From NCBI RefSeq assembly GCF_002797445.1, contig NZ_PGEP01000001.1, positions 929,001-993,000 of the forward strand: 64,000 nt of DNA, written 5' to 3'. Below the pieces are notes generated by a model. It was not told the origin of the DNA and ran no database searches. It saw only the letters and a program-made list of their open reading frames with translations. Each line of letters begins with the position of its first letter. The first letter of the stretch is position 1. The DNA comes from Acidovorax sp. 69. Lineage in GTDB: Bacteria > Pseudomonadota > Gammaproteobacteria > Burkholderiales > Burkholderiaceae_C. Below, piece by piece: positions 2,488-24,807 of this stretch. The translations under genes were made by a program, and so were the position numbers.

Positions 2488-2795
2488 GATGAAAATCCTT
2501 GAATAGAAACATCTCAAAAAAACCGGGACGAAGGGTCGTCACTGAAAGAAGGCAACTTCTTCAACCCGGGTTCGGTGAGTCGCCTTGCGGTTTCGGCTCA
2601 TCGATGGAAGAACTTTACGCCGATGGTGTTTGCAGAAAAACTACTTGGTTTTAAACTGACTGTTCCAGTATTGCGAATAATTGAAGTCCACCTCCGTGAT
2701 GAAGCAGGGCGCGTCTTTTCGTGGGTGAGGTGTCGAGTGCTGTGCGGGCCTGTGACAATGGGCGTCCCTCTCATTTGCCAGGCAGCGCTTTCACA
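2488..2795. other. Intergenic region between DUF4148 and helicase genes
   Basis: About 308 bases without a supported gene, holding the divergent promoters of the DUF4148 gene (minus) and the helicase gene (plus). It is more AT-rich than its surroundings around 2620-2690. I see no clear -35/-10 pair, repeat or RNA gene. An in-frame GTG at 2721 could extend the helicase by 25 residues. Confidence 0.4.
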
Positions 2796-4808
2796 ATGAC
2801 ATCCCATTCCGCCAGGAGCTGGAGCCACCAATGGCTCCTGCCAACCGGCGAGCAGCAGCAGGTGCTCCAGTCCAAGGCCGCCGCGATCATCATCAGCGCA
2901 CTGGCGGGGACGGGTAAGACGACCACGCTGTGCATGAAAGCATGTAATTTGTTGGCCGGTATGGATCGAGGGGGCCGTATTCTCGCGCTGGCCTATTCGC
3001 GAGCGGGAGTCACCGCCATTCGCGACCGGCTGATCAAACTCGACGGTGTGGTGCCTGCGCGCCTGGAGATCCTGACCATCGAGCAACTCAGTGAGAGAGT
3101 GCTGAAAGAACAGGGGGACCCTGTCGCGAAGCTCGATGATCCGGTGCGACGGCGTTTTCTGATCCTCCAGGCACAACAAGCGCTGCGCCAAGAACTGCAA
3201 CGGAGCCCGGACAACGACGCCAATGCGCTGATGGCGCAGGACGTGGATATCGACGCGTTTCAAGCTTTTGAGGCGCAGGCCAAGAAGACCTTGTTGGACC
3301 GACAGTTTCAGGACTCGGGCACAGACCTGCACACTTTCTGTCAAGAGCGGGATCTGGACTTTGGCCTGTATCGGCTACTGAGGCACTACGAGCGCATGCG
3401 TGCAGGCCTGAATCATGAGCCGCAGTTTTATGCCGACGGGGATTGCACCTTTGAATTGTGCCGTCAGCTGGACTTGCTGGATTGGGGGCAGCCCTGTGAA
3501 TGGCTGCAGGGGCGGTACGGTGCGGTGTTGTTCGATGAGCTGCACGACCTTGATGAAGCCGCGTTGATGGTTCTGCGCAAACTGGTGCAGAGCGACAACG
3601 GCGTATTTGTGGGCGCCGGTGATTTCAATCAGCATATCCACGAGGGATCGTTGTCGGTGTTTGGCGGCGCCATGCAGCACATCCGGGACTGCTTGCCTGT
3701 GGATGCCGAGGTGCTGAACATCAACACCACGCGCCGGTTTGGTGCGGAGATTTGCGGGGCCCTCAACCCCCTGTTCGCGCTGGAGTTCGCCTCAGTATCG
3801 GAGAACTCCGATTCATTCCTGCATTCGACTTACGACACGGATGAACATTGTGCGCAGCAACTGGTGGAGGTTCACGCGCAAATTGTCAACGGTTGGGGGG
3901 CGCTGCAGGGGGGTAAAAGCAAGCACAGTGCCTTGAATGTGATGCTGAGGAATCCCCAGGACAGCATGTTGCTGGAGTGGGTGTTTGGGCATGAAGGCGT
4001 GCACTACGGTTGCCAGGGGATGAGCGTTTTTTATCTGCGCAAGGAAGTGGCCCTGGTTCTGTCTTTGATGTGGGCCTTGCAAGACAGCAACGCAGAACGC
4101 CATTTGACTCTGGGGATTGTGAGTGCGGCGGTTCAGGGGCTGATTCACTATGGCCGCCGCAACGCCCTGGCGCATGGCGCAGATGCCGATGTATTGGCCC
4201 AAGGCCAGTTTGACCAGACATGCTGGACAGCTTTGCACGGTGCCAGCGAAAGCCACCAAATGGCCGTTACGTTGTATGCGGATTCCGCGCGAATGCGTCG
4301 CTACATTTTGCATGGCACCCTGAATCCCCAGGCCTCCGAGCTGGACGACCATTGCGCCAAAATGATGGCGCTGGCACCCGATGTGCTCGGGGATGCCGGT
4401 GCGTTTTGTCGCCACCCCTGGGTGCGTCGCATCTTTGACGACGCATCGATCAACGGCCAAGAGCGAAGCGCATGCCTTGCAAGCCTTGATGGGTTGTCGC
4501 GGCTGGGGCGTGGCATTCCTGTGGGCGAGTTCCTCGGTCGCCTGACGCTGATGGCCCGTGGCAGCATTGAGAGGCACCAACACAAGGAGCCGGTGACCTT
4601 GCGTTTGATGAGCGTGGATGCCTGCAAGGGCCGCGAATTCACGTTTGTGGCGGTGCCCTTTGTGGAGCGCGGGCGCTTCCCCAGCACTGTGACGCACAAC
4701 GAGGCTTACCGGGAGCGCAACATGCTGTATGTGGCGATGACCCGCGCGCGCACTGCGTTGTGGTTGCTGGAGAGTGTTGCCAGGCCCGTGACCCCGGGGC
4801 CTGTTTAG
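2796..4808 (+). CDS. UvrD/Rep-like superfamily 1 helicase
   Basis: A 670-residue protein with the order of SF1A helicase motifs: a Q-motif-like TGEQQQVL (residue 17 on), Walker A ALAGTGKTT (about 35-43), an ILALAYSRAG motif Ia, DELHD at about 247 in place of the usual DEFQD Walker B, a QHIHEGSLSVFGG motif III region, VDACKGREF as motif V and MLYVAMTRAR as motif VI near the C-terminus. It is shorter than UvrD (about 720) and motif II has His where Gln-Asp is usual, so it is a divergent member, perhaps a stand-alone DNA repair or defence helicase. ATG 2796 is preferred over GTG 2721. It is a lone gene, convergent with the stator locus. Its DNA substrate is unknown. Confidence 0.85.
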   Translation: MTSHSARSWSHQWLLPTGEQQQVLQSKAAAIIISALAGTGKTTTLCMKACNLLAGMDRGGRILALAYSRAGVTAIRDRLIKLDGVVPARLEILTIEQLSERVLKEQGDPVAKLDDPVRRRFLILQAQQALRQELQRSPDNDANALMAQDVDIDAFQAFEAQAKKTLLDRQFQDSGTDLHTFCQERDLDFGLYRLLRHYERMRAGLNHEPQFYADGDCTFELCRQLDLLDWGQPCEWLQGRYGAVLFDELHDLDEAALMVLRKLVQSDNGVFVGAGDFNQHIHEGSLSVFGGAMQHIRDCLPVDAEVLNINTTRRFGAEICGALNPLFALEFASVSENSDSFLHSTYDTDEHCAQQLVEVHAQIVNGWGALQGGKSKHSALNVMLRNPQDSMLLEWVFGHEGVHYGCQGMSVFYLRKEVALVLSLMWALQDSNAERHLTLGIVSAAVQGLIHYGRRNALAHGADADVLAQGQFDQTCWTALHGASESHQMAVTLYADSARMRRYILHGTLNPQASELDDHCAKMMALAPDVLGDAGAFCRHPWVRRIFDDASINGQERSACLASLDGLSRLGRGIPVGEFLGRLTLMARGSIERHQHKEPVTLRLMSVDACKGREFTFVAVPFVERGRFPSTVTHNEAYRERNMLYVAMTRARTALWLLESVARPVTPGPV

Positions 4809-5099: not shown

Positions 5100-5720
5100 T
5101 CACTGCTTCGGTCGGCTTTTGCGCGGCGGTTTGATGGCCGGGCTGCTAGACACTTTGGCGTTGGCCTGGTCGATCCACAGCAGGGTGTCCATCTGCGACA
5201 TGAAGCGCCGCAGGTAGTCGGGTGACAGGGCTCGCATGAGGCTCAGCGAGCGCAGAACGAGCTTGTGCGAATTGAGCGGACCCGCATTCTCAGGCCCCCG
5301 GTGCAGGGCCTGCACCACCTGCTGTTCTGCCGATATTTTGGACCACACTTCGCCGAAGTGGCGCACGCTTTTCATGTCCGACAGGCTCTCGCTGTCACTG
5401 GACCGCACGGTGTCTGCTTCGGTTTGGGCGCGGGCATGGATGTGCCGGTTCAGTCGCGCCAGCGGGGATTCTGTGGCGGGCGTCGCGGCTTTGCTGGCGA
5501 GTGGCTCGCAAACTCCGGGGGTTGGAGGATCGCTCGGGGCGCCTTGGGCATAAGCGATCACGGCCGCATGCAGTCGCTCTGCCAATACCTGCCGCACGGA
5601 CGCGGGTTGGCCTGGCAGGCGCCGGGCCAACACTTCCAGGTAGTGAAAGCGTGCCGGGTCATGGCGGTGCGCGCCTTCGGCCCGCAGGGACTCCAGCGTG
5701 GGCTCGCTCGGCTCACTCAT
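5100..5720 (-). CDS. DUF2894 family protein
   Basis: A 206-residue predicted cytoplasmic protein, last gene of the DUF3348-DUF802-OmpA-DUF2894 operon. It begins MSEPSEPTLESLRAEGAHR and has the conserved HYLEVLARRLPGQP segment, a variable Pro/Ala-rich middle and a helical C-terminal third ending in a basic tail (KPPRKSRPKQ). ATG 5720 overlaps the end of the OmpA gene by 8 bases; a longer open frame upstream runs through that gene and is not real. The domain has no known function. Its fixed place next to an ion-channel/OmpA pair suggests a cytoplasmic accessory of that complex, which is inference. Confidence 0.8.
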   Translation of the reverse strand: MSEPSEPTLESLRAEGAHRHDPARFHYLEVLARRLPGQPASVRQVLAERLHAAVIAYAQGAPSDPPTPGVCEPLASKAATPATESPLARLNRHIHARAQTEADTVRSSDSESLSDMKSVRHFGEVWSKISAEQQVVQALHRGPENAGPLNSHKLVLRSLSLMRALSPDYLRRFMSQMDTLLWIDQANAKVSSSPAIKPPRKSRPKQ

Positions 5721-6369
5721 TGCGCGGTGGCTGGGTGTTCGATGCCTTGGGCACCGGGGCCATTTCGACACGGCGGTTTTGTGCGCGGCCCTTCTCATCG
5801 GCGTTGTCTGCCACGGGCTGCTCTGCACCAAACGCAGCAGCAAACACCTGCGAGGAGGGCATGCCCTCATCGATGAGGGCCCGCGCCACGGTGAGTGCGC
5901 GCTGGGCCGACAGCTCCAGGTTGTCTGCAAAGCGCTGATGGGTACCGCGCAGCAGCGTGGTGTTGTCGGTGAATCCGCTCACCATGAGCATCTCGTCGCG
6001 TTCGCGCAGATACACCATCAAAGGCTGCACAAGGCTCTTGAGGAGTTGGCGGCCCTCAGGGCGCAGCTCGTCCGAGCCTGTGCCAAACAGCACACTGCCG
6101 CTGATGCCAATGCGGCCATTGTTCACCGTCACCCGGCCACTGGCCAGGGGGATGGCGAGTGCCTTTTCGAGTGCCATGCGGCGCTGCTCTTCCATCTGGC
6201 GCTTTTCGACCTCCTGCTTCAGGCTGGCCACCAGGTCGATCTGCACCACGAGCACGCCCACCAAAATCAGCACGAACGCGCCCAGCAGGCCCGCCATGAG
6301 GTCTCCGAACACGGCCCACACGGGTGCCGTCTGTTCAGTGGCATCGTCCAGGGCGTCGTCCATACCCAT
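5713..6369 (-). CDS. MotB/ZorB-like OmpA-family stator protein
   Basis: A 218-residue inner-membrane protein with one N-terminal transmembrane helix (about residues 16-45, PVWAVFGDLMAGLLGAFVLI) carrying Asp23 in the FGDLMAGLL context, the place of the proton-binding Asp of MotB. After a charged coiled stretch comes an OmpA-like peptidoglycan-binding domain with GFTDN (Asp about 135) and NLELSAQRAL. It should anchor an ion-driven complex to the cell wall. Start: stop TGA of the channel gene and this ATG overlap by one base (TGATG); a GTG at 6372 is an alternative. It is translationally coupled to the channel gene before it and the DUF2894 gene after it. Confidence 0.88.
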   Translation of the reverse strand: MGMDDALDDATEQTAPVWAVFGDLMAGLLGAFVLILVGVLVVQIDLVASLKQEVEKRQMEEQRRMALEKALAIPLASGRVTVNNGRIGISGSVLFGTGSDELRPEGRQLLKSLVQPLMVYLRERDEMLMVSGFTDNTTLLRGTHQRFADNLELSAQRALTVARALIDEGMPSSQVFAAAFGAEQPVADNADEKGRAQNRRVEMAPVPKASNTQPPRNE

Positions 6370-9044
6370 CACGCCGCCACTCCTTGTGGCACAGAGGCCT
6401 TGCCGTGCAGCCGGCGCAGGTCTTCCACAATGCCCTGCTGCGCACTGATGCTCAGGTCGATCACCTCGCGGGCCTGGGCCACGTAGTAGGCCAGTTGCTC
6501 ATCGCTGCGGCTCATCGACTGTTGGATGGCGCCTTCGATGCCGTGGAGGCTTTCCATGAGCTTTTCGTTGCTGGCACTGAACAGGCCGACGCCGTGGCCG
6601 AAGGATTCGCCCAGGCTGGCCAGTTCCACAGCGCTGGCGGCGACATGCGTTGCGACCTCGTCCACCTTGCCTGCCTGTGCGCTGAGCGACTGGGCAAACT
6701 GCTGCCCCGCCTGCTCCAGCACCTGGGCGGCCGAGCCCACCAAGGCGTCGATGGCCGCGCGTTGCTTTACGGCGGCTTCGTTCACCGACTGCAGCAGGGT
6801 GCCGACCTGCTCCATCATGGCCGTGCGTTCTGCCAGTGCGACGTTGTCGCGCTCGCTCAGGCGCGTCATTTCCTGGCGCAGCTGGGTGATGACCTCGGCG
6901 GCAGCCTGCGGCACATCCGATGCCGTCTGCAACAGGCGCGTGAGCGGTGCTTCCAGTGCTGAGCCGAGGGTGGCCAGGTGCTGTGCCACGGCCGTCTGCA
7001 GTGTGTCGAGCCGCTCCACGGCGGCGTGGCCGCGCTGGGCCTCGGCATCGCGCAGGGCCACCAGCTCGGTGCGCCATACACCCGTCAGTTGGTCCATGCG
7101 CTGGCCTTGGGTCTGCACCCACTGGGCCTCGGTTTCCAGGCGTGTGCGCAACAGCGCGTCCGACTGGTCCATCAATTCGGCCGCGCCGCCCAGCGTGCGG
7201 GCCACCTGCTCGGTCAGTCGTTCGGTGATCTGTGTGGCCGTGGCCTCCAGGGCGTGGCACACAGCCTGTTGCTGCGCCACGGTGTGTGCGCCCACGCGCT
7301 GCCACTCGGCGCTGAGGCTGCTGGCCATGCCTTCCATGGACCGGCCCCAGCCTTCCAGGCGCTGCTGGTCGGTCGTCGCCTGGGCGGCATGGGATTGCGC
7401 TACCGTCTCCTGCAAGGCCGCCAACCATGCACTGGAGTGCTGATCAAAGGCCTGTGTGGTGGCTTGCAAGGTGTGGTCGATTTGTGTGGCCGCGCCTTCC
7501 AGCGCCTGGCACACCGCCTGTTGTTGCGCCACGGTCTCTGCGCCCATGCGCTGCCACTCGGTGCTGAGGCTGCTGGCCATGCCTTCCATGGACCGGCTCC
7601 AGCCTTCCTGGCGCTGCTGGTCGGCCGCCACCTGGGCGGTATGGGCTTGCACCACCGTCTCCTGCAGCGTTGCGAGCAAGCTGCTGGAGCGCTGGTCAAA
7701 GGCCTGCGCAGCCGTCTGCAAGCTGTGGCCCAACTGCTGGGCAGCGCCCTCCAGGGCCTGGCCTGTGCGCTGCTGTTGTTCCTCGGTCTGCGCGCCCACG
7801 CGTTGCCACTGGGCGCTGAGCGTGCTGGCCATGTCTTCCATGGAGCGGCTCCAATCGTGCAGGCGCTGCTGATCAGCGGCCGCATCGGCCGCCCGCGACT
7901 GCGCTGCCGACGCCTCCAGCGAGGCCACCATGGCGCTGGAGCGCTGGTCAAACGCTTGCGTGACTGTCTGCAGCGCGCCGTCGAGCTGTTCCACCAGGGT
8001 GTTCTGGGTCTGGGTGTGGCTGTGCAAGGCGGTGGTCCAGGTGTCGGCCACCTGGCGGGCCGTGCCCTCCCACTGGGCCGAGAGCGCCTGGAGCTGCGCA
8101 TTCGTGGTTTCGCGCAGACGCTCGTGCGAACGTTGCGCCTCCTGGGCCAGCGTGGTCATCGCCTGCTCGACTACGGGGCGAATCGCCTCACCGGCCTGGC
8201 GGGCACTGGCACCCAGGCTCTCGTGCAGCGAGGTCCCCACGGTGCTCGCCAACAGGGTGTAGGCCGAAGCAGCTTCGCGGTGAAAGCCCTGCTGTTGTGC
8301 CAGCAGTTGCTCGCCCAGCTGGCCACTGCGCCGGTCCAGCCCTTCCATCAGGTCGTGCAGGCGCTCCGCAATCAGGGGCATGGCCTGGGCCTGCGTCTGC
8401 AAGGCGCGCAGCATTTCCTCGCGCCGGTGGGCCGGCGAGAACGTCCGAAACAGCGTGGGGATGTGCGCATCCAGCAGGCGCACGGCCTGCAGCCGGTCGC
8501 GCCGGCTCATGGCAGACAACAGGCCCAGCATGGCCGACGCGGCCACCCCGGCGACCGATGTGCCGAACGACAGACCCAGGCCTTTGATGGGCGCGGCCAG
8601 TGCTGCGCGGATCGACTCCAGGTTGGAAGATGCCTCCAGCGCGAACACGGCGCCATTGAAGGTGACCACCATGCCTAGAAAGGTACCCAACATACCCAGC
8701 ATGACCAGCAAGCCCACCAGATAGGGGGTGAGGGCCGGGCCGGGCAGCGCCACGCGCTCTCCCTCGATGCGCTGGCGTACCGGGTGGCGCAGCGACGGTG
8801 CAATGCGCCCCAGCCAGCCACCCAGGTCGGCCAGCGGCTCCGCGGAGTTGCCGTTCAGTGCCGTGGTCAGCGACAGGGTGTGGGCGCGGAACTGCATCAG
8901 CTCAAAGGCCCCCAACACGTACACCATGCCAATCACCGCCGTCATGGCGAGCGCCAGCGGGCTGGACCCCACAAAACCCCAGCCTACCCACCCCACAGCC
9001 GCAAGGCCTACGGCGAAGATGGCTGCCATCACACTTTTGTTCAT
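6369..9044 (-). CDS. DUF802 protein with MotA/ExbB-like channel and long repetitive tail
   Basis: An 891-residue inner-membrane protein. The N-terminus has four hydrophobic segments (about 5-25, 30-50, 106-130 and 155-178); the last two (GLLVMLGMLGTFLGMVVTF and GLGLSFGTSVAGVAASAMLG) look like the pore hairpin of MotA/TolQ/ExbB proteins. The rest, about 700 residues, is Ala/Gln-rich helix, with three 84-residue tandem repeats from 363 to about 614, each holding AFDQ-SS, RSMEGMAS and WQRVGA. Proteins of this kind carry DUF802. With the OmpA partner it most resembles MotAB or the ZorAB motor, whose ZorA also has a long cytoplasmic tail. It overlaps DUF3348 by 4 bases (ATGA). The job is unproven. 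Confidence 0.85.
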   Translation of the reverse strand: MNKSVMAAIFAVGLAAVGWVGWGFVGSSPLALAMTAVIGMVYVLGAFELMQFRAHTLSLTTALNGNSAEPLADLGGWLGRIAPSLRHPVRQRIEGERVALPGPALTPYLVGLLVMLGMLGTFLGMVVTFNGAVFALEASSNLESIRAALAAPIKGLGLSFGTSVAGVAASAMLGLLSAMSRRDRLQAVRLLDAHIPTLFRTFSPAHRREEMLRALQTQAQAMPLIAERLHDLMEGLDRRSGQLGEQLLAQQQGFHREAASAYTLLASTVGTSLHESLGASARQAGEAIRPVVEQAMTTLAQEAQRSHERLRETTNAQLQALSAQWEGTARQVADTWTTALHSHTQTQNTLVEQLDGALQTVTQAFDQRSSAMVASLEASAAQSRAADAAADQQRLHDWSRSMEDMASTLSAQWQRVGAQTEEQQQRTGQALEGAAQQLGHSLQTAAQAFDQRSSSLLATLQETVVQAHTAQVAADQQRQEGWSRSMEGMASSLSTEWQRMGAETVAQQQAVCQALEGAATQIDHTLQATTQAFDQHSSAWLAALQETVAQSHAAQATTDQQRLEGWGRSMEGMASSLSAEWQRVGAHTVAQQQAVCHALEATATQITERLTEQVARTLGGAAELMDQSDALLRTRLETEAQWVQTQGQRMDQLTGVWRTELVALRDAEAQRGHAAVERLDTLQTAVAQHLATLGSALEAPLTRLLQTASDVPQAAAEVITQLRQEMTRLSERDNVALAERTAMMEQVGTLLQSVNEAAVKQRAAIDALVGSAAQVLEQAGQQFAQSLSAQAGKVDEVATHVAASAVELASLGESFGHGVGLFSASNEKLMESLHGIEGAIQQSMSRSDEQLAYYVAQAREVIDLSISAQQGIVEDLRRLHGKASVPQGVAA
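7203..7958 (-). repeat. Three tandem 252-bp repeats inside the DUF802 gene
   Basis: The coding sequence for residues 363-614 is built of three copies of 252 bases (84 codons), close to identical over long stretches, especially copies 2 and 3. Repeat units begin at AFDQRSS, AFDQRSS and AFDQHSS. Such near-identical in-frame units can expand or shrink by recombination, changing tail length by 84 residues at a time without breaking the frame. Confidence 0.9.
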
Positions 9045-9847
9045 TCCTGTGGTCCTGTTTTCTCGTGGTGGGCTGCTTCCAGCAGCCCCGTGATCGGCTG
9101 AAGGCGTACCTGCATTTCTGCGAGCAGCAACGCCTGTAAATCCTGTTCAAAAGCCCATAGCCAGCCACCGGGCTGGCGCCAGCGCAGGGGCTCGTCGGCC
9201 CGACCGCTGGTTTGCAGTGCCTGCTGGTGCTTGTGTTGCAGGTGCGCCAGACGCCGTTCCAGATAGCCTGGCAGAGACGTCCACAGCCGCTGCTCGCGCG
9301 CACCCAGCATCTGCTCCATCACGCCGTCCAGCGCCGCCAGCTGTTGCAGGGCCATGGGCCCCTTGGCGAGTGCATGGCGTACCTGTGTCCGCAGCGCCAG
9401 CAGCCGCGTGTCCATCTGCTTTTGCAAATCCAGATAGCGTGGGCCATGGGCTGCAAAGTTCGCATCGGCCTGCGGGTCGGGCAGTTCTACGGGCGTGTTG
9501 TCGGCCCGAGCGCGCAAAGGCTTGGGGGCTGCCACCCCGGCTGTCATGAGGGTCGTCAGATCGGTCCGGGTCTTTTGCACTTGGCGGTCGAGCGCTGGCA
9601 CATCCAGATCGGCCCCCTGCAGCCCGGCCGCTTCCGCTGCCTGCGGCAGAGACTCGATGGCATGCAGCGCCCGGCTCAGCTTGACAGCATCTACGGTGCC
9701 CAGCCACTGGCTCAATGGCTCCGCCACGTCCTGCTGCGGTGACTGCGCCGTGCGCTCGCCATTCTCCCGCGCCCATTGCTGGAGCAGGACAACAAGTCTG
9801 GAACTATTGAGTCGGTGGTGCGGATACATCCCGTGGAGGTCATTCAT
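9041..9847 (-). CDS. DUF3348 family protein
   Basis: A 268-residue, mostly helical soluble protein that starts the stator operon. It opens with MNDLHGMYPHHRLNSSRLVVLLQQW (a second Met at residue 7 is an alternative start), followed by SQWLGTVDAVKLSRAL, and ends with GWLWAFEQDLQALLLAEMQVRLQPITGLLEA; this is the pattern of DUF3348 proteins that precede DUF802 genes in Burkholderiales. No signal peptide or membrane segment is visible, so it should act in the cytoplasm, perhaps on the long tail of the channel protein. Its stop overlaps the DUF802 start by 4 bases. Function unknown. Confidence 0.82.
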   Translation of the reverse strand: MNDLHGMYPHHRLNSSRLVVLLQQWARENGERTAQSPQQDVAEPLSQWLGTVDAVKLSRALHAIESLPQAAEAAGLQGADLDVPALDRQVQKTRTDLTTLMTAGVAAPKPLRARADNTPVELPDPQADANFAAHGPRYLDLQKQMDTRLLALRTQVRHALAKGPMALQQLAALDGVMEQMLGAREQRLWTSLPGYLERRLAHLQHKHQQALQTSGRADEPLRWRQPGGWLWAFEQDLQALLLAEMQVRLQPITGLLEAAHHEKTGPQE

Positions 9848-10360
9848 TCACTGTGCTGGCACCGGCCTCTGGATCTCTCCCAAGGCGCGGGCGTCAGGGA
9901 ACGGGTCCCCAGTGGGCAAAGCCTGCTATTTTCGCAGGAACGCCAGAAGGGCCTGGCTGGGGCGACCCGGCGTTGCAGGTGTTACACCTGTTCCGGGTGA
10001 GAAGACCCGCCAGACAGGCGCAATGCACCCATGCGCCCACCGTGGGGACGGCGATCGCGGGGGAGGGGCGTGTGAGGGCCGTCAGAGCCTTCAGAGTTTT
10101 CGCAAAGGGAGTGGTGCTGCGCAACCAGCGGCTGGGGACGCCGTCTCCACGTGTTGTTAGTGAAATTTTAATGAAAATAGCTGCAGGTGCTTATTTGTAA
10201 AGCACCTGCAGCTATCAAAATCATAGTTGTTGGCACATGGCGAGCCCGCTGCACGTTCTGGGGGGGCAGGCCTGGGCTGCCGCTGTAACGGCTACAGCGA
10301 GCGTATTTCACGGCCACCGTTCGTTGCGCGCTGTGGTCCCTCATCGATGGGGTCAGCGGC
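9848..10360. other. Intergenic region upstream of stator operon
   Basis: About 510 bases between the start of the DUF3348 gene and the end of dgoD. It must hold the promoter of the stator operon. I see a compact dyad at 9966-9997 (CAGGTG at 9976-9981, CACCTG at 9985-9990, flanked by CCCGG and CCGGG), which may be an operator or terminator, and a strong 16-bp palindrome at 10177-10215 listed separately. No convincing gene or RNA is visible. Confidence 0.5.
10177..10215. repeat. Palindromic intergenic repeat, 7-nt loop (copy 1)
   Basis: A perfect 16-bp stem: ATAGCTGCAGGTGCTT at 10177-10192 pairs with 10200-10215, with a 7-base loop. It belongs to a family of AT-flanked hairpins (core TAGxGCTT-N7-AAGCxCTA) found at five other intergenic places in this window. 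It lies 3' of dgoD, so it may end the long sugar operon. Confidence 0.85.
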
Positions 10361-11509
10361 CTACCATTCGGCGAAGCTCCCGTCCCGGTGCCGCCAGACG
10401 GGATTGCGCCAGCGGTGGCCTTGTGCGGCGCGTTCCCGTACATAGTCCTCGTTCACTTCAATGCCCAGTCCTGGCCCCTGGGGGATGGTCACCATGCCGT
10501 CGCTGTAGGCAAACACCTCTGGGTTGGACACATAGTCGAGCAAATCGTTGGCCTCGTTGTAGTGGATGCCCAGGCTCTGCTCCTGGATAAAGGCGTTGTA
10601 GCAGCCGGCGTCAATTTGCAGATTGGCCGCCAGCGCAATGGGCCCCAGCGGGCAGTGCAGGGCCAGTGCCACGTCATAGGCCTCGGCCATGGCGGCAATC
10701 TTGCGGGTTTCGGTGATGCCCCCGGCGTGTGAGGGGTCGGGCTGGATGATGTCCACATACCCCTCTTGCAGCACGCGCTTGAAATCCCAGCGTGAGTACA
10801 GTCGTTCGCCCAGTGCTATGGGTGTGGAGGTCAGAGGGGCCAGCTCCTTGAGGGCCTCATGGTGTTCACTCAGCACAGGCTCTTCGATGAACATCAGCTT
10901 GTATGGGTCAAGCTCCTTCATCAACACCTTGGCCATGGCTTTGTGCACACGCCCGTGAAAGTCCACACCAATACCCACATGGGGGCCCACGGCGTCGCGC
11001 ACGGCGGCGACGTTGGCCAGGCAGCGTTCTACCTTGTCGAAGGTGTCCACGTACTGCATCTCTTCGGTGCCATTCATCTTGACAGCGGTGAATCCCCGCG
11101 CCACGGCGGCTTTGGCGGCGTCGGCGGTTTCGCTCGGGCGGTCCCCGCCGATCCAGCTGTAGACGCGGATGCGGTCACGCACAGAACCCCCCAGCAGTTC
11201 GGACACCGACACCCCGAGCGCCTTGCCTTTGATGTCCCACAACGCCTGGTCGATGCCCGCGAGCGCGCTCATGTGGACGCCACCGCCGCGGTAGAACCCG
11301 CCCCGATAGAGCACAGTCCAGTGGTCCTCGATGTGGCGGGGGTCCTTGCCAATGAGGTAGTCGCCCAGTTCCTCCACCGCAGCAGCCACGGTGTGCGCGC
11401 GGCCTTCCAGAACGGGCTCGCCCCAGCCTACGATGCCTTCATCGGTTTCGATTTTGAGGAAGCACCAGCGTGGCGGCACCAGGAACGTTGTGAGTCGGGT
11501 GATTTTCAT
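10361..11509 (-). CDS. dgoD: D-galactonate dehydratase
   Basis: A 382-residue enolase-superfamily enzyme that converts D-galactonate to 2-keto-3-deoxy-D-galactonate. Catalytic and metal residues fall at the family positions: Asp183 and His185 (GVDFHG), Glu209 (FIEEP), Glu235 (ALGERL) and a His in ALHCPLGP near 285. The N-terminal capping domain ([14 protein letters not shown]) is typical of DgoD. The true start is ATG 11509; the open frame continues upstream through dgoA and part of dgoK in another reading and is not coding there. It is the last gene of the 13-gene sugar operon. Confidence in the reaction is high from length and residues. Confidence 0.96.
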
Positions 11510-11547
11510 GGCGACGGAATCAGTGGGAAATGCGGTGGGGGGGGGCT

Positions 11548-12195
11548 TCAGGCGCCCGGATAGGCCAGGCGCCATGCCGCCATGAAGGCGGTGGCCTGCC
11601 GGGCGACGTCGGCGGCCGTGTCTCCGGGGCGGTACAGCGCGGAGCCCAGGCCAAACCCGCTGGCTCCGGCCGTCGCATACGCCGCGATGCTTTCGGGCAC
11701 GATGCCGCCCACCGGCACCAGGGCCATGGGCGGTGTGATGACTGCGCGCCAGGCTTTGAGTACATGCGGCGGCAGGGCCTCTGCCGGAAACAACTTGAGC
11801 ATGTTGGCCCCAGCGCCCAGGGCGGCGTAGGCCTCCGTCAGCGTGGCCACGCCCGGTGCGCAGGCCATGCCTGCCGCTCTGGCGGCGTGGATGACGCCGG
11901 GATCGCTGTGGGGCATCACCACGATCTGACCGCCCGCTGCAGCCACATCGGCCACCGCCTCGGCAGAGAGCACGGTGCCTGCGCCCACCAGGCAGTCGGC
12001 GGGCAGTGCGTCGCGCAGGGCGCGGATGCTGGCCAGGGGGTTGGGTGAGTTCAGCGGCACTTCGATGATGCGAAAACCCGCGTCGTAAAGCGTTTGGCCG
12101 ATAGCGACCACCTCCTGCGGTTGCACGCCGCGCAGGATGGCGATCAGCCCGCAGCGCTGCAGGAGGTGGAACAGGGTCTTGTCGATGGGGTTCAT
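11548..12195 (-). CDS. dgoA: 2-dehydro-3-deoxy-6-phosphogalactonate aldolase
   Basis: A 215-residue class I aldolase of the KDPG/KDPGal family, splitting 2-keto-3-deoxy-6-phosphogalactonate into pyruvate and glyceraldehyde 3-phosphate. Glu45 ([11 protein letters not shown]) and the Schiff-base Lys134 (NMLKLFPAE) are in place; IEVPLNSP rather than VEVTLRTP points to the galactonate rather than the gluconate enzyme. ATG 12195 overlaps the end of dgoK by 4 bases, showing translational coupling. With dgoK and dgoD it completes the De Ley-Doudoroff route. Confidence 0.95.
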
Positions 12196-13244
12196 GGGAC
12201 CAGGCTCGCGTTGGTGGAAGGCGGCGTGTGGGGGATGGCGGGCACTGTGATGAGCCCCGCAGCCAAAGCGATGTGCCACAGACCGGTGGCGGTGGCGTTT
12301 GCCGCCATGGTGGCTTTGTCAAAGCCATAGACCTGCAACGCGATGGCGTAGCGGCGGCACAGGTCGGGCTCGCCGCACAGCACCAGAGTGTGGTGCGCTC
12401 CCAGGCCGTGCGGTTGCACCCGCGCAAGGCAGGCGATCTCGTGGCCAATCAGCAGGCCAGAAAGGTAGTCGGCTTGTGCCGTGGCGGGCAGCTCACCGGT
12501 CAGACCCAGCGTGCGCGTGCTAAAAATGTGCGACAGCAGGCCCAGGTCGGCCTCGCTGCCACGCGCTACCTCCAGTCCGCGCGCAAAGGCCTTGTCATCG
12601 GGCACAGCCGGTGCCTGCATGGTCTTGCCCAGGATGGTGTGGCCGCGTACCGCGGCAAACACCTCACCGGTCATGAAGGTGTAGAAGTGTTCAAGGCGGC
12701 GCTGGCGCGCCACCACCCATTTGCTGTGTGTGCCGGGCAGGCCGATGAGCACAGTGGCGTTGTCGGCCAGCGGCAGGCTGGCCAGCACCCCCAGCACCCC
12801 CAGCACCTGGGTCTCTTCCCCACGCATCACATTGGGCAACAGGCCGCGTTGCATCAGGCCGGGCACGATGTGCAGCGGTGGGGCGTCTCCGCGATGAACG
12901 GCGGTAAGGCCCTGGGCCAACGCATCGAGCGAGGTGGGCGCATTCAGATACGGGGCTTCGCGCCAGCCCTGTGCACTGCCCACCATGCCGCAGGCCAGCA
13001 GTGGCTGGTGGGGTGCGGCGGCCAGCCAATCGCCGCAGCTGTCGTGCAGCGCGCGCTCAAAGGCAGCACCTGGCTCCGGGTCTTCCACCCCCTTGTCAGC
13101 AAGTGGCAAATTCATGATGCCCCAGGGGCGGTGGCGCGTCTCCAGCACTTCGCCGTGGGCACCCATGCGAAAGGCGCGCAGCGAACTGGTGCCCCAGTCC
13201 AGAGTCACCAGGCGGGTGTCAGAGAGGTGGGCGTTGTCTGCCAT
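12192..13244 (-). CDS. dgoK: 2-dehydro-3-deoxygalactonokinase
   Basis: A 350-residue sugar-acid kinase that phosphorylates 2-keto-3-deoxygalactonate at O6. The N-terminus has the phosphate-loop [11 protein letters not shown], and [11 protein letters not shown] and [16 protein letters not shown] are family blocks. It is slightly longer than the E. coli enzyme (about 290) because of an extended C-terminus ([22 protein letters not shown]). It overlaps dgoA by 4 bases and starts 6 bases after the stop of the keto-deoxy-sugar-acid dehydratase gene. Confidence 0.94.
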
Positions 13245-13250
13245 GGTGGC

Positions 13251-14189
13251 TTACTTGCCCCAGCGCAGCACCAGGGGGTCCAGCCGGCGCGCGATGTCGA
13301 TCAGGCCCCGGCGCACCTCGGGGTGCATGGCCGGGAAGGGGTGGCGACCGGCCTCGCAGGCGATCACGCCGCCTTCCTTCATCAGTGCCTTGGCCGTGAG
13401 GATGCCGCCCTGGCGGTTTTCGTGGTTGATCAGCGGCAACCAGCGCTGGTAGAGCGCAAAAGCCTGGTCCGTGTCGCCCTGGCGGTGCGCCTCGATGATG
13501 GGGCGGATGCCGTCGGGGAAGGCGCCGCCTGTCATGGCACCGGTAGCGCCTGCGTCCAGGTCGGCCAGCAGGGTGATGGCCTCTTCGCCGTCCCATGGGC
13601 CTTCGATGGCATCACCGCCCAGGCGGATCAGCTCGCGCAGCTTGCTGGCGGCACCGGGTACTTCGATCTTGAAGTAGGCCAGGTTTTCAATCTCTTGCGC
13701 CATGCGGGCCAGGAACGGGGGCGACAACACGGTGCCGCTGGCGGGCGCGTCCTGTACCATGATCGGAATGCCGATGGCGTCGGACACGCGGGCGTAGAAC
13801 TCGTAGATCTGCGCCTCGGGCACGCGGAAGGTGGCACCGTGGTAGGGCGGCATCACCATCACCATGGCGGCGCCCATGTCCTGCGCGGCGCGGCTGCGCT
13901 CGGCGCACACGCGGGTGCCGTAGTGGGTGGTGGTGACGATCACGGGCACGCGGCCTGCCACGTGCTCCAGCGACAGGCGGGTCAGGGTTTCACGCTCGGC
14001 ATCCGATAGCGAGAACTGCTCGGAGAAGTTGGCCAGGATGCAGACGCCATCCACGCCCGCATCGATCATGAAGTCCAGGCAGCGCTTCTGGCTGTCGAGG
14101 TCGAGCGTGCCGTCTTCGTGGAAGGTGGTGGGCACCACGGGGAAGATGCCGCGATAGCGAGGGTTCTGGAGGGAATGGGTGGCTGGCAT
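13251..14189 (-). CDS. 2-keto-3-deoxy-L-arabonate dehydratase (DHDPS family)
   Basis: A 312-residue (beta/alpha)8 enzyme of the DapA/NanA superfamily. The Schiff-base Lys is Lys174 (LAYFKIEVPG) and the partner Tyr is in MPPYHGA (about 116). Within the superfamily the sequence (DAPASGTVLSPPF, KIEVPGAASKLREL) fits enzymes that dehydrate 2-keto-3-deoxy-L-arabonate to 2-oxoglutarate semialdehyde in the oxidative L-arabinose pathway (AraD of Azospirillum naming). The next gene upstream is an L-arabonate dehydratase and the first gene of the operon is a semialdehyde dehydrogenase, which completes the route. An aldolase role is possible but fits the context less well. Confidence 0.85.
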   Translation of the reverse strand: MPATHSLQNPRYRGIFPVVPTTFHEDGTLDLDSQKRCLDFMIDAGVDGVCILANFSEQFSLSDAERETLTRLSLEHVAGRVPVIVTTTHYGTRVCAERSRAAQDMGAAMVMVMPPYHGATFRVPEAQIYEFYARVSDAIGIPIMVQDAPASGTVLSPPFLARMAQEIENLAYFKIEVPGAASKLRELIRLGGDAIEGPWDGEEAITLLADLDAGATGAMTGGAFPDGIRPIIEAHRQGDTDQAFALYQRWLPLINHENRQGGILTAKALMKEGGVIACEAGRHPFPAMHPEVRRGLIDIARRLDPLVLRWGK

Positions 14190-16064: not shown

Positions 16065-17099
16065 TCAGCGAGGCTTGCCCGAGCGGCGTGAAAGCAGCCG
16101 CTGCAGCAGGCAGAAAACGAACAGGAGCACACCGACGACGATGCGCGTCCACCAGGAGCTGAGCGTGCCGTCGAAGGAGATCAGGGTCTGGATGATTCCG
16201 AGCATGAGCACGCCAAACAGCGTGCCGGCCACATAGCCCACCCCGCCCGTGAGCAGCGTGCCGCCAATCACCACGGCGGCAATCGCGTCCAGCTCCATGC
16301 CCACGGCATGCAGGCCATAGCCAGAGAGCATGTAGAACGTGAACACCACCCCCGCCAGTGCTGAGCAAAAACCCGACAGCGTGTACACGCCGATCAGCGT
16401 GCGGCGCACCGGCAGGCCCATGAGCACGGCCGATTGCTCGCTGCCACCCACCGCATACACGCTGCGGCCAAACGGTGTGCAGTGCGCTACAAACAGGGCC
16501 ACCAGCAGCACCGCGATGGCAATGAGGGCGCCCAGCGAGAGCGAGGCGCCTTCCCACAAAGGCAGGCGCCACTGGGCCCACTCCGAATAGCCTTCGTGCG
16601 TGATGCTGATCGAGTCGATGCTGATCAGGTAGCACAGCCCCCGCGCCAGGAACATGCCTGCGAGCGTCACGATGAAGGGCTGCAGCCGAAAGCGCTCGAT
16701 GAGGAAGCCCATCAACGCGCCAAACGCCGTGCCCATCAACAGCACCAACGGCACAGCCACCAGCGGGTTCCAGCCCCGGTGCTCCACCAGTGCCGCCAGC
16801 ACCATGGTGGTCAGCGCCACCACCGAGCCCACCGACAGGTCGATACCGCCCGACAGGATGACGAACGTCATGCCCACCGCCACGATGATGAGGAAGGCGT
16901 TGTCGATCAGCAGGTTGAGGAACACCTGGGCCGAGAAGAACCCGGTGTACAGCACCGAACCCAGCGTGGCCATGGCCACGAACAGTGAGATGGTGGCGGC
17001 CAGCGGCAGGTACTTTGGGTTGAACCGGACGCGCCCAGCGGCCTGTGGGGCAGGGGGGCTCACGGTGCTGAAGCCTGCGGTCTTGGGGAGGGCGCTCAT
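16065..17099 (-). CDS. yjfF: Sugar ABC transporter permease, YjfF-like
   Basis: A 344-residue inner-membrane permease of the RbsC/BPD_transp_2 family with eight or more hydrophobic segments. VGMTFVILSGGIDLSVGSVVAL and FIVTLAGMFLARGL are family blocks, and AVGGSEQSAVLMGLPVRR is the EAA-like loop that contacts the ATPase. It pairs with the neighbouring YtfT-like permease (4-base overlap) and YtfR-like ATPase. The E. coli homologue imports galactofuranose; related systems import L-arabinose, which would suit this operon better. Confidence 0.88.
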   Translation of the reverse strand: MSALPKTAGFSTVSPPAPQAAGRVRFNPKYLPLAATISLFVAMATLGSVLYTGFFSAQVFLNLLIDNAFLIIVAVGMTFVILSGGIDLSVGSVVALTTMVLAALVEHRGWNPLVAVPLVLLMGTAFGALMGFLIERFRLQPFIVTLAGMFLARGLCYLISIDSISITHEGYSEWAQWRLPLWEGASLSLGALIAIAVLLVALFVAHCTPFGRSVYAVGGSEQSAVLMGLPVRRTLIGVYTLSGFCSALAGVVFTFYMLSGYGLHAVGMELDAIAAVVIGGTLLTGGVGYVAGTLFGVLMLGIIQTLISFDGTLSSWWTRIVVGVLLFVFCLLQRLLSRRSGKPR

Positions 17100-18140
17100 T
17101 GCAGCGCTCCCGCACCGGGGCGGCGTGTCATGGCGCCGACTTGTGCACGAAACTCGGGCGACTGCAGCAGCATCACCACGAACACCACCACCGCCTTCAC
17201 CACCAGGTTGATCTCGGGTGGAACCCCCAGCGAATAAATGGCGTAGGTCAGCGTCTGGATGATGAGCGCACCGATCACACTGCCCACCAGGCTGAAGCGT
17301 CCGCCGGTGAGGGCGGTGCCACCCAGTGTCACGGCCAGAATGGCATCCAGCTCCAGCAGTTGGCCGGCGTTGTTGCCGTCCGCACTCTTCACGTTGGAGC
17401 TGATCAGCAGCCCCGCAACGCCTGCGCAGATGCCGCAGAACGCGTACGCCGCCACGATGAGCCGGCCCGCCTGCACGCCCGCCAAGCGAGCCGCCGTGGG
17501 GTTGATGCCCACTGCCTGGACGAACAAGCCCAGCGCCGTGCGGGTGATGGCGAGGTACAGGATGGCAAACACCGCTGCCACTACAAACAGCGAGAAGGGC
17601 AGCCCCGCCAGATAGCCGCCACCCATAAAGAAGTAGGGCGTGTAGTAGATGGTGATGATTTGCCCGTCGGTGATGAGCTGGGCGATGCCCCGGCCCGCCA
17701 CCATGAGGATCAGCGTGGCGATGATGGGCTGCATGCCTACCTTGGCCACCAGAACGCCGTTCCACAGGCCACACAACAGGGCCACCCCGATGGCGCACAG
17801 GATGGCTACCGGCAGCGGGAACCGGCTTTCGGTGCCCGACACAGAGCCGCCGATCATCCAGGCCGCCACAGCAGCGGAAATGGCCACCACCGCACCCACT
17901 GAAATGTCGATGCCGCGCGTGGCGATCACCATCGTCATGCCCAGCGACACCAGCACCAGCGGTGCGGCGCGGTTCAGGATGTCGATGAGGCTGCCGTACA
18001 GGTGTCCATCGCGCCATTCGATGTGCAAGAAGCTGGCGTTGAAGGCCGTATTGACAGCCAGCAACAGCAGCAGCGTGATGATGGGCCACGCCAGGCGGTG
18101 GCGCAGCAGCGCGGCTAAAAGGGAAGGAGAGGGGGAACGT

Positions 18141-18148
<8 letters not shown>
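17096..18148 (-). CDS. ytfT: Sugar ABC transporter permease, YtfT-like
   Basis: A 350-residue permease partner of the YjfF-like protein. It has VSLGMTMVIATRGIDISVGAVVAISAAVAAWMIGG, the long spacer of YtfT proteins, VGMQPIIATLILMVAGRGIAQLI, and the cytoplasmic loop QAVGINPTAARLAGVQ. ATG 18148 overlaps the ATPase stop by 8 bases; the open frame extends 19 codons upstream without a good site. Together with YjfF it should form a heterodimeric channel for an aldose in furanose or pyranose form. Confidence 0.88.
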
Positions 18149-19690
<1,542 letters not shown>

Positions 19691-19694
<4 letters not shown>

Positions 19695-20920
19695 GCCTTG
19701 TTCTTGTTGTAAACATCGACGAGCACGGCGGCCAGCAGCACCACGCCCTTGATGACCTGCTGGTAGTCGATGCCGATGCCCAGGATGGACATGCCGTTGT
19801 TCATCACGCCCATCACAAAGGCGCCGATGACCGCGCCCATCACCTTGCCCACGCCGCCCGATGCCGATGCGCCGCCGATGAAGCAGGCTGCAATCACGTC
19901 CAGCTCAAAGCCCAAGCCCGCCTTGGGCGTGGCGGTGTTGAGCCGCGCCGCAAATACCAGCCCGGCCAGAGCTGCCAGCACGCCCATGTTGATGAAGGCA
20001 TACAGCGTGAGGCGTTCGGTCTTGATGCCCGAGAGCTTGGCCGCCTTTTCGTTGCCACCCATGGCGTAGATGCGGCGACCGATGGTAGTGCGGCGGGTGA
20101 CAAAGTCGAAAAGTACGATGAGCAGCGCCATCACGATGAGCACGTTGGGCAGGCCCTTGTACGAGGCCATGAGGTAGCTGAAATAGACCAGCAGAGCGCC
20201 AAATACCACGGTGCGCGCGATGAACAGGCTGGCGGGCTCGGTCTGCACCCCATGCCGCAGGCGGTTGGCGCGTTCGCGCAGGCCACCCAGTGCAAGCGCT
20301 GCGGCCACGGCGGCGCCCAGCAGCAGCGAGGTCAGGCGCAGCCCCTCCATGTTGAAAAGGTCGGGAATGAAGCCCGAGCTGAGCATCTGGAACGTGGCGG
20401 GGAATGGCCCCACCGACTGGCCCGCCAGCAGTGCCAGTGCCAGGCCCTTGAACACCAGCATGCCCGCCAGCGTGACAATGAACGACGGAATGCGCGAGAA
20501 AGCCACGAAGCTGCCCTGCACCGCGCCAATCAGCCCGCCGCACAGCAGGCACACCAACGTGGCGGGCACAAAGTGCCATTGGTATTCCACCATCAGCACA
20601 GCGGCCAGCGCACCAATGAAGCCACACACCGAGCCCACCGACAGGTCGATGTGGCCCGCCACGATCACCAGCAGCATGCCCAGCGCCATGATGATGATGT
20701 AGCTGTTCTGCAGCACCAGGTTGGTCAGGTTGAGCGGCTGCATCAGCGTGCCGTCGGTCATGTACTGGAAGAAGCCCATGATGGCCACCAGCGTGATCAA
20801 CATGCCGTATTCGCGCAAGTTGTGCTGCAGATGGTGCAGCAAAGGCTTGTCGTTGCGGGGCGCCGAGGGGGATGCGCTCTCTGCAACGGGGTTGGCGGGG
20901 GAGGGGGTGGTCTGGCTCAT
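19691..20920 (-). CDS. gguB: Multiple monosaccharide ABC permease, GguB/MmsB-like
   Basis: A 409-residue permease, longer than other RbsC-type proteins because of an inserted hydrophobic region typical of GguB (LLLGAAVAAALALGGL to ARTVVFGALLVYFSYLMASY). Blocks include ALGMLLVIVAGHIDLSVGSVCGFIGALAA and AMGGNEKAAKLSGIKTERL. With GguA and the ChvE-like binding protein it should import several monosaccharides (glucose, galactose, arabinose, xylose). It overlaps the YtfR-like ATPase gene after it. Confidence 0.93.
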
Positions 20921-20921
20921 A

Positions 20922-22439
20922 TCAACTGGCTTTCACAATCGCTCGCATGATCTTTTCCTGGGAGGCTTCGCTTGTGGGCATTTCGGCCACAAAGCGTCCC
21001 TCGTTCATCACGTAGATGCGGTCCGTGATTCCGAGCAACTCAGGCATTTCGGAAGAAATCACGATCACACACTTGCCCTCGGCCGCCAGCTGGGCGATGA
21101 GGGTGTAGATCTCGTACTTGGCCCCCACATCGATGCCGCGCGTGGGCTCGTCGAGGATGAGCACCTCGGGGTTGGTAAAGAGCCATTTGCTCAGTACCAC
21201 TTTTTGCTGATTACCGCCCGAGAGCTGGAGGGTTTTCTGGTCCACCCCCGAGCAGCGGATGCGCAGCTTTTCGCGGTAGTTCTGCGCAATCTCATGTTCA
21301 CGGCCGCTGTCGATCACGCTCGCGAAAGACACCCCCTTGAGGTGTGCGAGGGAGGTGTTGAACTGAATGTCTTCGTTCAGCACCAGTCCATTGCCCTTGC
21401 GGTCTTCCGTCACATAGGCCAGGCCATGGCGCACGGCCTTCTCCACAGTGCTCACGTCGATGGGCTGGCCGTGCAGTCGCACCTCGCCGCTGATGCGGCG
21501 GCCCCAGGAGCGGCCAAAGATGCTCATGGCCAGCTCGGTGCGGCCTGCGCCCATCAGGCCGGCAATGCCGACAATTTCGCCACGCTTAACATGCAAGTGG
21601 ATGCCCCTGAGGAACTCACGCTCGCTGTTTTGGGGGGGGTAGGCGTGCCAGTCGCGCACCTCGAAAACGGTCTCTCCGATGTCGGGCTGGCGCCGAGGGT
21701 AGCGGTCGTCCATCTCGCGGCCGACCATGGCCTGGATCACGCGGTCCTCGCTCACAGCACTGTTGCGGCAGTCCAGGGTCTCTACGGTGCTGCCATCGCG
21801 CAGCACGGTGATGGAGTCGGCCACGCGGGAGATTTCGTTGAGCTTGTGCGAAATCAGGATGCAGGTGATGCCCTGCCCTTTGAGTTCGAGCAGCAGGTCC
21901 AGCAGCGCCTGGCTGTCGTTTTCGTTGAGGCTGGCGGTGGGCTCGTCCAGAATCAGCAGGCGCACTTCACGCGACAGGGCCTTGGCGATTTCCACCAGCT
22001 GCTGCTTGCCCACGCCCAGCTGCACCACCGGGGTATCGGGAGATTCGCGCAGGCCCACCTTGGCCAGCAATGCTTGGGTCTTGCTATGTGCGGCCATCCA
22101 GTCGATGACGCCGCAGCGCGCGGTCTCGTTGCCCAGGAAAATGTTCTCTGCGATGGACAAAAGGGGCACCAGCGCCAGCTCCTGGTGGATGATGATCACG
22201 CCCTGGTGCTCGCTGTCACGGATGCCCTGAAAGCGGCGCTCCTGCCCATCCAACACGATGTCTCCGCTGTAACTGCCATGCGGATAGACACCGGAGAGCA
22301 CCTTCATCAGGGTCGATTTGCCGGCGCCGTTCTCGCCCACGATGGCGTGGATCTCGCCCGCCCGCACGCGCAGGTTCACCTTGTTCAGCGCCACCACTCC
22401 AGGAAAAGTTTTGCGGATATCCCGCATTTCAAGAATCAT
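20922..22439 (-). CDS. gguA: Multiple monosaccharide ABC ATPase, GguA/MmsA-like
   Basis: A 505-residue double ATPase. First half: Walker [18 protein letters not shown]-loop and [11 protein letters not shown]; second half: [23 protein letters not shown] and [14 protein letters not shown]. The insertion [17 protein letters not shown] between the halves is typical of GguA/XylG. It energises the GguB permease in the inner membrane. It begins 118 bases after the chvE stop; that gap may hold a weak hairpin lowering ATPase level relative to binding protein, which I cannot show. Confidence 0.93.
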
Positions 22440-22557
22440 GTTCTGCGCTTGTGCGTGGAGCCGTGGGAGCCTGCAACCTCTGACGGGGCTTCGCAGGACT
22501 CCCTCAAGATGGCTGGCATCGGGGCGCGCATGCAGCGCCCCCCCGATGCCGCGCTTG

Positions 22558-23628
22558 CTACTTGACCTGCGATTCCTTGTAGTAGCCGCTGCCCACCAGC
22601 ACAGCGTTCCAATTGGATGCGTCCACCGACACGGGCTTGAGCAGGTACGAGGGCACCACTTTCACGCCGTTGTTGTACGTTTTGGTGTCGTTGATCTCGG
22701 GCTGCTTGCCCGACAGCGTGGCGTCCACCATGTTGGCGGCCACCTTGGCCAGTTCGCGCGTGTCCTTGAACACGGTGGAGGCCTGTTCACCCTTGAGGAT
22801 GGACTTGACCGAAGGCAGTTCTGCGTCCTGTCCGCTGACCACGGGGCAGGGCTGTTGCGCCGTGCAATAGCCCACACCCTTCAAAGACGACAGGATGCCG
22901 ATCGAGAGGCCGTCATAGGGCGACAGCACCGCGTGGACCTTGTCCTTGCTGTAGTAGGCCGAGAGCAGGTTGTCCATGCGCGCCTGGGCCACGGAGCCGT
23001 CCCAGCGCAGCGTGCCCACCTTGTTCATGCCGGTCTGCTTGCTGCGCACCACCAGTTTGCCGCTGTCCAGGTACGGCTGCAGCACGCTCATGGCACCGTC
23101 ATAGAAGAAGAAGGCGTTGTTGTCGTCGGGCGAACCGCCAAACAGCTCGATGTTGAACGGGCCCTTGCCCTGCTTGAGGCCCAGCTTGTCCACGATGGAT
23201 GTGGCCTGCAGGACGCCGACCTGGAAGTTGTCGAACGTGGCGTAGTAGTCCACGTTCTTCGATCCTTTGATGAGGCGGTCATACGCGACGACCTTCACGC
23301 CCTTGTCTGCCGCGCTTTGCAGCACGCGCGACAGGGTGGTGCCGTCGATGGACGCAATCACCAGTACCTTGGCGCCCTTGGTGATCATGTTCTCGATCTG
23401 CGCCAGCTGGTTCGGGATGTCGTCGTCGGCGTACTGCAGGTCGGTCTTGTAGCCACGCTCCTTGAGCACCTTGACCATGTTGTCGCCGTCGGCGATCCAG
23501 CGCGACGAGGACTTGGTGGGCATCGAGATACCGATGCTGCCCTTGTCTTGCGCCGATGCCAACGATGTGGCGCCGACGGCAGCGATCGCCATGGTGGCCA
23601 ACACGGCCTTGAAAATTGCACGCTTCAT
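22558..23628 (-). CDS. chvE: Multiple sugar-binding periplasmic protein, ChvE-like
   Basis: A 356-residue exported protein. Signal peptide [20 protein letters not shown] with cleavage after LASAQ; mature part begins [25 protein letters not shown], as in ChvE/GguC-linked receptors, with [29 protein letters not shown] and [20 protein letters not shown]. It should bind galactose, arabinose, glucose or xylose and pass them to GguAB. Start ATG 23628 is chosen at the signal peptide; the frame runs further upstream through the repeat hairpin and is not coding there. Confidence 0.93.
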
Positions 23629-23691
23629 TTGTTGTCGTCTCCTGCTTGTTGGAATACCTGCGCCATTGCAGCGGGCGGGTGGTTTTTGAAA

Positions 23692-23751: not shown

Positions 23752-23779
23752 GTGGGTGCGTTCTTGACGCCTGCCGTTC

Positions 23780-24745: not shown

Positions 24746-24807
24746 GGTTTTGTCTCCTTTGCTGTTATGGATGGAAATTGCAGGCAATCGGAACCTGTTC
24801 GAAGGCG

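Follow-up and report, generated by a model that had tools for sequence, protein, structure and literature searches.

The closest described relatives of the locus reported here are the Zorya anti-phage systems of types I (ZorABCD), II (ZorABE) and III. The ZorA-ZorB motor has been solved as a 5:2 assembly for types I and II, both of which depend on the membrane Asp, on binding to the wall and on the extension of ZorA; the same 2025 structural paper includes type III in its list and, in the text accessible to us, its work covers types I and II (PMC11890865). Type III was defined in 2021 on the basis of 6,401 gene pairs that have both DUF genes, DUF3348 and DUF2894, at their sides, and, according to the available part of that paper, the type III system of Stenotrophomonas nitritireducens lowered phage plating in E. 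coli (PMC8565338). We analyzed a stretch of 64,000 nucleotides from Acidovorax sp. 69 (contig NZ_PGEP01000001.1, positions 929,001 to 993,000), referred to here as the window, and found a four-gene locus that, judged from its sequence, is a Zorya type III operon. As far as the literature could be read, type III itself is already known, and the new observations are an 84-residue length ladder in the ZorA rod, repeat units of near-whole helical turns and a type-specific rod tip. No report of the stepwise ladder or of the type-specific tip was found in the Zorya literature accessible to us; Hu et al. (Nature 2025) may already discuss tails.

The four genes lie on the minus strand within positions 5100-9847 of the window and, with the chosen starts, overlap successively by 4, 4 and 8 bases:

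9041..9847, minus strand: DUF3348 protein, 268 residues (Pfam DUF3348, E 4e-53; PADLOC ZorG3, E 1e-62).
6369..9044, minus strand: zorA3, a MotA/ExbB-like channel subunit with a long cytoplasmic tail, 891 residues (Pfam DUF802, E 1e-11; PADLOC ZorA3, E 5e-273).
5713..6372, minus strand: zorB3, a MotB-like stator partner with membrane Asp24 and an OmpA peptidoglycan-binding domain, 219 residues (Pfam OmpA, E 4e-18; PADLOC ZorB3, E 1e-106).
5100..5720, minus strand: DUF2894 protein, predicted helical with a basic C-terminal tail, 206 residues counted from the chosen ATG (Pfam, E 6e-53; PADLOC ZorF3, E 2e-63).

The locus is assigned to type III because the type III models of PADLOC score best for each of the four proteins, with E values from 1e-62 to 5e-273. 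Type III ZorA and ZorB, the flanking DUF3348 and DUF2894 genes, the ZorB Asp and the ZorA Thr and Ser residues are all present, and all four genes are shared with the S. nitritireducens system; we found no feature that excludes membership. The NCBIfam ZorA model NF033915 stays under its cut-off on the window's ZorA (29.9 of 100 bits). Of 80 loci of the Comamonadaceae type, 72 have the gene order G-A-B-F, and the other eight start within the operon, where their contig ends; of 20 distant loci fetched, 19 have this order, and the last is likewise cut by a contig end. The names of the two partners are swapped between sources: ZorF is DUF3348 and ZorG is DUF2894 in the available text of the papers (PMC8565338, PMC11890865), and PADLOC-DB (PDLC00652-00658) has them in reverse.

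An earlier note on this DNA, made from the letters alone, had described four coupled genes with these domains, and both the overlaps and the Pfam matches agree with it. Its tail of about 700 residues measures 686 residues beyond residue 205. The likeness to ZorA-ZorB that it proposed proved to be more than an analogy, with ZorA3 and ZorB3 identified by PADLOC and the head matching a solved type I ZorA. The MotA/ExbB-like channel that it named is supported by the same two results and not by Pfam, where DUF802 alone passes the cut-off. From the missing ZorC and ZorD it had suggested a separate machine with unknown partners, and this was not supported, since DUF3348 and DUF2894 define type III. 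The note had missed this type III identity of the partners and also the 252-bp tandem array described below.

The head of the motor contains the following feature:

8520..8723, minus strand: ZorA pore region, residues 108-175, in which all 41 aligned heads have T121, T162 and S163.

Searching with a profile of the head, we obtained one solved structure, 8vvn_C, a type I ZorA (E 4e-7), in an alignment that pairs the GTF and TSV stretches; the window's ZorB matches the type I ZorB structure 8vvn_B (E 6.5e-4). The membrane Asp of ZorB, which the earlier note had called conserved, is indeed so: Asp24 (codon 6301-6303) is found in 98 of 98 distinct ZorB proteins, the window's included. It is residue 24 counted from the GTG start and residue 23 from the ATG that follows.

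In comparison with type I (Shewanella sp. ANA-3, 8VVN), the window's system is alike in motor head, ZorB, rod spacing and near-whole-turn repeat units; it differs in its rod tip and in having no ZorC or ZorD beside the operon. In the listed PADLOC matches of the four genes and of their nearest neighbours, zorC and zorD are both absent (for the UvrD-like neighbour, 25 of 44 families were listed), the rest of the genome not being searched. Type II resembles it in ZorA and ZorB, at lower PADLOC scores, and in rod spacing, whereas the window's operon has no ZorE alongside, its tip motif is absent from the type II relatives, and the listed type II ZorA proteins are shorter (378-688 residues). The zorE HNH nickase is not among the listed PADLOC and Pfam matches of the scanned genes, again with the rest of the genome not searched. 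By fold family, ZorA and ZorB are also a MotA/B-like pair, and the OmpA domain of ZorB matches MotB and PomB structures. The window's system would work like the flagellar stators MotAB and PomAB without being a member of that family: it has a long tail and private operon partners, ZorA reaches the cut-off of no MotA family, and all listed MotB-type NCBIfam models for ZorB (25 of 38) stay under theirs.

The tail of ZorA, whose DUF802 domain Pfam describes as a repeat, is built in part from long repeats:

7230..7972, minus strand: 252-bp (84-residue) tandem array in the ZorA rod (Tandem Repeats Finder: about 2.9 copies, 78% matches).

At the protein level, the window's ZorA is up to 0.78 identical to itself at an offset of 84 over 60 residues. 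Setting the cut-off for a tandem unit at 50% identity over up to 60 residues, we find such units in 51 of 98 distinct ZorA proteins, and shuffled tails reach 0.38 at most. When database relatives are included, type III shows tandem repeats in 133 of 209 proteins, type I in 15 of 119 and type II in 5 of 120, in samples that differ in closeness: the relatives are the 120 best listed of 7,828 matches for type III, 629 for type I and 291 for type II. The length of ZorA ranges from 571 to 1192 residues across 112 full proteins, the window's included; nine of 120 loci were left out of this set as cut, frame-split, or lacking the head or the end. One of the excluded loci, L039, has the head and the end of zorA in different frames around 7076-10639, and this copy may be broken or misassembled.

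The lengths are not spread evenly. We took 141 type III ZorA proteins whose heads share 74% identity or more with that of the window; 136 of them lie on a ladder with rungs at 715-733, 800-815, 887-903, 974-982 and 1053-1060 residues, each set 8 to 19 residues wide; the approximate series of arm lengths in these close relatives is 724, 808, 892, 978 and 1057 residues. Five proteins are off the ladder, one of them labelled partial by its source. A free fit over 140 lengths gives a best step of 85 (R 0.941), with 0.939 for 84. Total length alone therefore places the step at 84-86, and the figure of 84 rests on the repeat itself. A quick tree built from head and tip requires the rung to have changed 23 times or more, and 54 of 198 pairs with at least 99% identity in the first 300 residues differ in rung, these pairs not being independent of one another. 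The protein P0047 (808 residues, on a 5.37-Mb contig) is 99.3 and 99.0% identical over its first 300 residues to P0055 and P0063 (both 892 residues, on contigs of 1.03 and 5.49 Mb), and the difference in length between P0047 and P0063 lies in the repeat region and equals one unit. Thus, 84-residue units of the rod are gained and lost whole among relatives, and the predicted arm length changes in fixed steps. For types I and II, the available passage of the structural paper describes components whose size is well conserved in each family (PMC11890865). The listed type I ZorA relatives (P0121-P0240) span 560-840 residues, plus six entries of 353-492.

The ladder may nonetheless be neutral: units may come and go by unequal recombination, any length that stays in register may work, and short arrays from metagenomes may in part reflect assembly collapse. 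The repeat units, which at the upper extremes are 94-96% alike in DNA (L079 and L147), could easily recombine, short contigs are the source of many of the 120 database proteins listed, and lengths vary even at identical heads. Large contigs nevertheless show the ladder too, as P0047 does against P0055 and P0063. Weighing these points, we consider the odds for a neutral ladder to be about even.

We then compared the helical spacing of the rods. Tail hydrophobicity has its strongest period at 3.66 residues per turn in type III (power 21.8, against 0.39 at 3.50), at 3.64 in type I (14.8 against 2.6) and at 3.65 in type II (17.8 against 4.8); the rods of the three types are similar in helical spacing. 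The type III value of 3.66 is near the 11/3 of hendecads. A heptad coiled coil was ruled out for the type III rod, where the power at 3.50 is 0.33-0.89, and types I and II retain some. The rods of the distant loci L132, L135, L137 and L138 have repeats of 33, 44, 55 and further multiples of 11 residues, the pattern that bare hendecads would give.

The repeat units themselves come close to whole turns. Nine unit lengths occur in type III (29, 33, 44, 62, 69, 84, 87, 91 and 94), and at 3.64 residues per turn they deviate from whole turns by 0.068 on average and by 0.18 at worst (94). None of 20,000 random sets matched this fit, each being given its best period between 3.60 and 3.70, in a test that may favour in-phase offsets, since coiled coils are self-similar in phase and the controls were plain tail shuffles that do not keep phase. 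With the period fixed at 3.64, the seven type I lengths (40, 51, 69, 80, 91, 95 and 102) have a mean deviation of 0.03, and none of 50,000 random sets was as low; five of the seven are absent from the type III set. Some of these lengths depend on one another: 33 and 44 are both multiples of 11, and 102 is twice 51. The four type II lengths fit less well (mean deviation 0.124, with 1,837 of 50,000 random sets as low), and this counts against a whole-turn rule that covers all types. The natural reading of these results is that insertions survive where the core of a continuous helical rod stays in register.

The rod ends in a stretch about as well kept as the pore:

6408..6509, minus strand: ZorA rod tip, residues 846-879, with the motif DEQLAYYVAQARE; in the block 841-870, 48 relatives are on average 83% identical to the window.

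In the same 48 relatives, mean identity to the window is 0.71-0.88 in the blocks of residues 91-180, around the pore, and 0.83 in the tip block; in blocks 361-540, where gaps are numerous, it is 0.14-0.24. The motif DEQLxYYVAQARE is found in 199 of 209 type III proteins and in none of 120 type I and none of 120 type II proteins; nine of the ten type III proteins that lack it are one letter off, and the tenth is a partial record. Comparing the last 110 residues with the mid-rod, we find identities of 0.70 and 0.36 in type III, 0.58 and 0.37 in type I, and a small contrast of 0.51 and 0.49 in type II. With head and tip both constant, the tip in a type-specific form, and an elastic stretch between them, ZorA fits an arm that bears the partners particular to its type, and from its sequence the tip is likely the docking site for the two.

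Both partners are predicted to be helical and appear to carry no clear nuclease or helicase domain. The AlphaFold2 model of the DUF3348 protein consists of helices only (predicted local distance difference test score 89.5; predicted template modelling score, pTM, 0.84). For the DUF2894 protein, 99% of 97 relatives have a charge of at least +3 in the last 20 residues. No enzyme family was found for the window's two partners in Pfam or PADLOC. Weak Pfam matches appeared among relatives of DUF3348 to TBCA_PH (7 of 69, best E 0.0013) and to the exonuclease VII large subunit (4 of 69, best E 0.049), and among relatives of DUF2894 to EccE (2 of 67, best E 5e-4); we take all three as probable coiled-coil noise. 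The DUF2894 profile also matched PscE, a type III secretion protein, at E 0.043. A fifth conserved partner was looked for and ruled out, as 939 flanking open reading frames (ORFs) of 98 loci, once clustered, gave no family in more than ten loci.

Taken together, gene content and order, the invariant pore residues, the wall-binding domain family, the hendecad-like tail, the whole-unit repeats and the type-specific tip point to a Zorya type III operon that encodes a predicted ion-driven inner-membrane motor, whose rod would be moved on phage attack and whose conserved tip likely engages ZorF and ZorG. We put the probability of this reading at roughly 60%. By homology to types I and II, ZorB would sense the disturbance of the cell wall on phage attack, ions would pass at Asp24 of ZorB in a 5:2 ZorA-ZorB assembly, and ZorA would turn or shift the long rod. 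The tip may then engage the ZorF and ZorG partners, and the basic tail of the DUF2894 protein may contact nucleic acid or lipid. Arm length may also have a functional effect. A bolder form, in which the motor has an adjustable arm, the 84-residue units reset the distance of partner delivery and the type-specific tip is a plug that holds the type's own effectors, is tentative and, to us, possible rather than probable.

Several results weigh against the motor reading, at least as one of simple defence. The model of the DUF2894 protein, predicted helical, is weak (pTM 0.37), and fold searches with the two partners gave no significant match to known structures. Within the genus, for which the nearest named records are Acidovorax, 29 of 36 genomes have DUF3348, with one match each, which also suits a housekeeping role. 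The survey of neighbouring genes for linkage to defence, proposed in the earlier note and run in part, gave a weak signal. In 90 of 98 loci, crude gene calls found 212 gene-like ORFs no more than 4 kb away, 138 of them nearest on either side, and the 115 of these with up to 700 residues were scanned; the filtering missed genes, including the window's own UvrD-like gene. Twelve PADLOC families match among the 115, none in more than two genes; ten control genes of the window away from the locus gave no PADLOC match, a number too small for a comparison of rates. The commonest flanking Pfam families (25 of 131 were listed) are LysR regulators, oxidoreductases, ferredoxins, transporters and similar families. 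No phage record contains at least 80% of ZorB, and no relative was confirmed in the IMG/VR viral contigs by a search reaching close relatives only. In summary, the context is unlike a classical defence island.

An alternative to the motor is that type III ZorAB is a gated ion channel that de-energises infected cells, with the DUF proteins as its regulators and the rod as a gating lever. ZorF and ZorG were in fact proposed in 2021 to regulate ZorAB, in the accessible text of PMC8565338, and partners with neither an enzyme family nor a significant fold match suit such a role. A gate, however, would not need a rod of such length with a tip conserved to about the degree of the pore, and DNA-cutting partners act in types I and II, according to the available parts of PMC11890865 and PMC13192584; the helical proteins of type III could be enzymes that the searches do not recognise. 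We regard the gated channel as unlikely.

Somewhat less likely still is an operon that serves as a housekeeping motor of the envelope, its anti-phage effect in E. coli being a by-product of overexpression. The single match in most genomes of the genus fits this, as do the mainly metabolic and regulatory flanks, the few matches to defence models and the lack of confirmed viral copies. At wider range, however, the operon is patchy: DUF2894 is found in 19 of 300 genomes of the order, and DUF3348 in 23 of 397 genomes of the phylum over the cut-off (24 at E 0.001). The operon also occupies several chromosomal sites, as no flanking family recurs in more than eight of 40 close loci. Of 72,556 plasmid records, 27 contain ZorB, and those listed, 20 in number, measure 366 kb to 3.2 Mb. 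These sites, the plasmid copies and the protection reported in the accessible text of PMC8565338 speak against housekeeping.

Next to the operon stands a gene that faces it:

2721..4808, plus strand: UvrD-like helicase gene, convergent neighbour, 695 residues (Pfam UvrD, E 6e-15).

The earlier note had rightly placed this gene next door, convergent and outside the operon. It is found in 20 of 47 genomes of the genus (E 1e-60), where its relatives form a close group (70-76% identity) and a second group at 49%. The operon was placed in 16 of these 20 and lies beside the UvrD-like gene in six and apart from it in ten. Of 36 genomes of the genus, 29 have the operon, 16 of them together with this gene, and none of the seven others carries it (one-sided Fisher P 0.009, a value that ignores both kinship and incomplete genomes, three of the seven operon-less genomes being at most 90% complete). 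As a required effector it was ruled out, being apart in ten of 16 genomes and missing from 13 of 29 operon genomes. Although the gene is confined, within the genus, to genomes that hold the operon and is 74-75% identical in the other five with the adjacent arrangement, its opposite strand, its distance in ten genomes and its absence from 13 at E 1e-60 make even an accessory effector very improbable; some association short of a fixed partnership may exist.

Elsewhere in the window, positions 10361-14189 (minus strand), upstream of the operon, hold a galactonate dehydratase gene (NCBIfam) with aldolase-like and kinase-like genes, labels given by reading, NCBIfam having no family for 12192-13244; this looks like a sugar-acid catabolic cluster. 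Positions 17096-26259 (minus strand) carry ABC transporter genes (two permease and two ATPase) and an aldehyde dehydrogenase gene.

In the Zorya literature accessible to us, signalling from the rod to the partners is still a hypothesis. The type III arms form a natural graded series with similar head and tip, by which the effect of arm length is testable without design, and the tip motif offers a short candidate stretch for partner docking. In these searches, type III stands as a Zorya type without a clear nuclease, its two partners being predicted helical.

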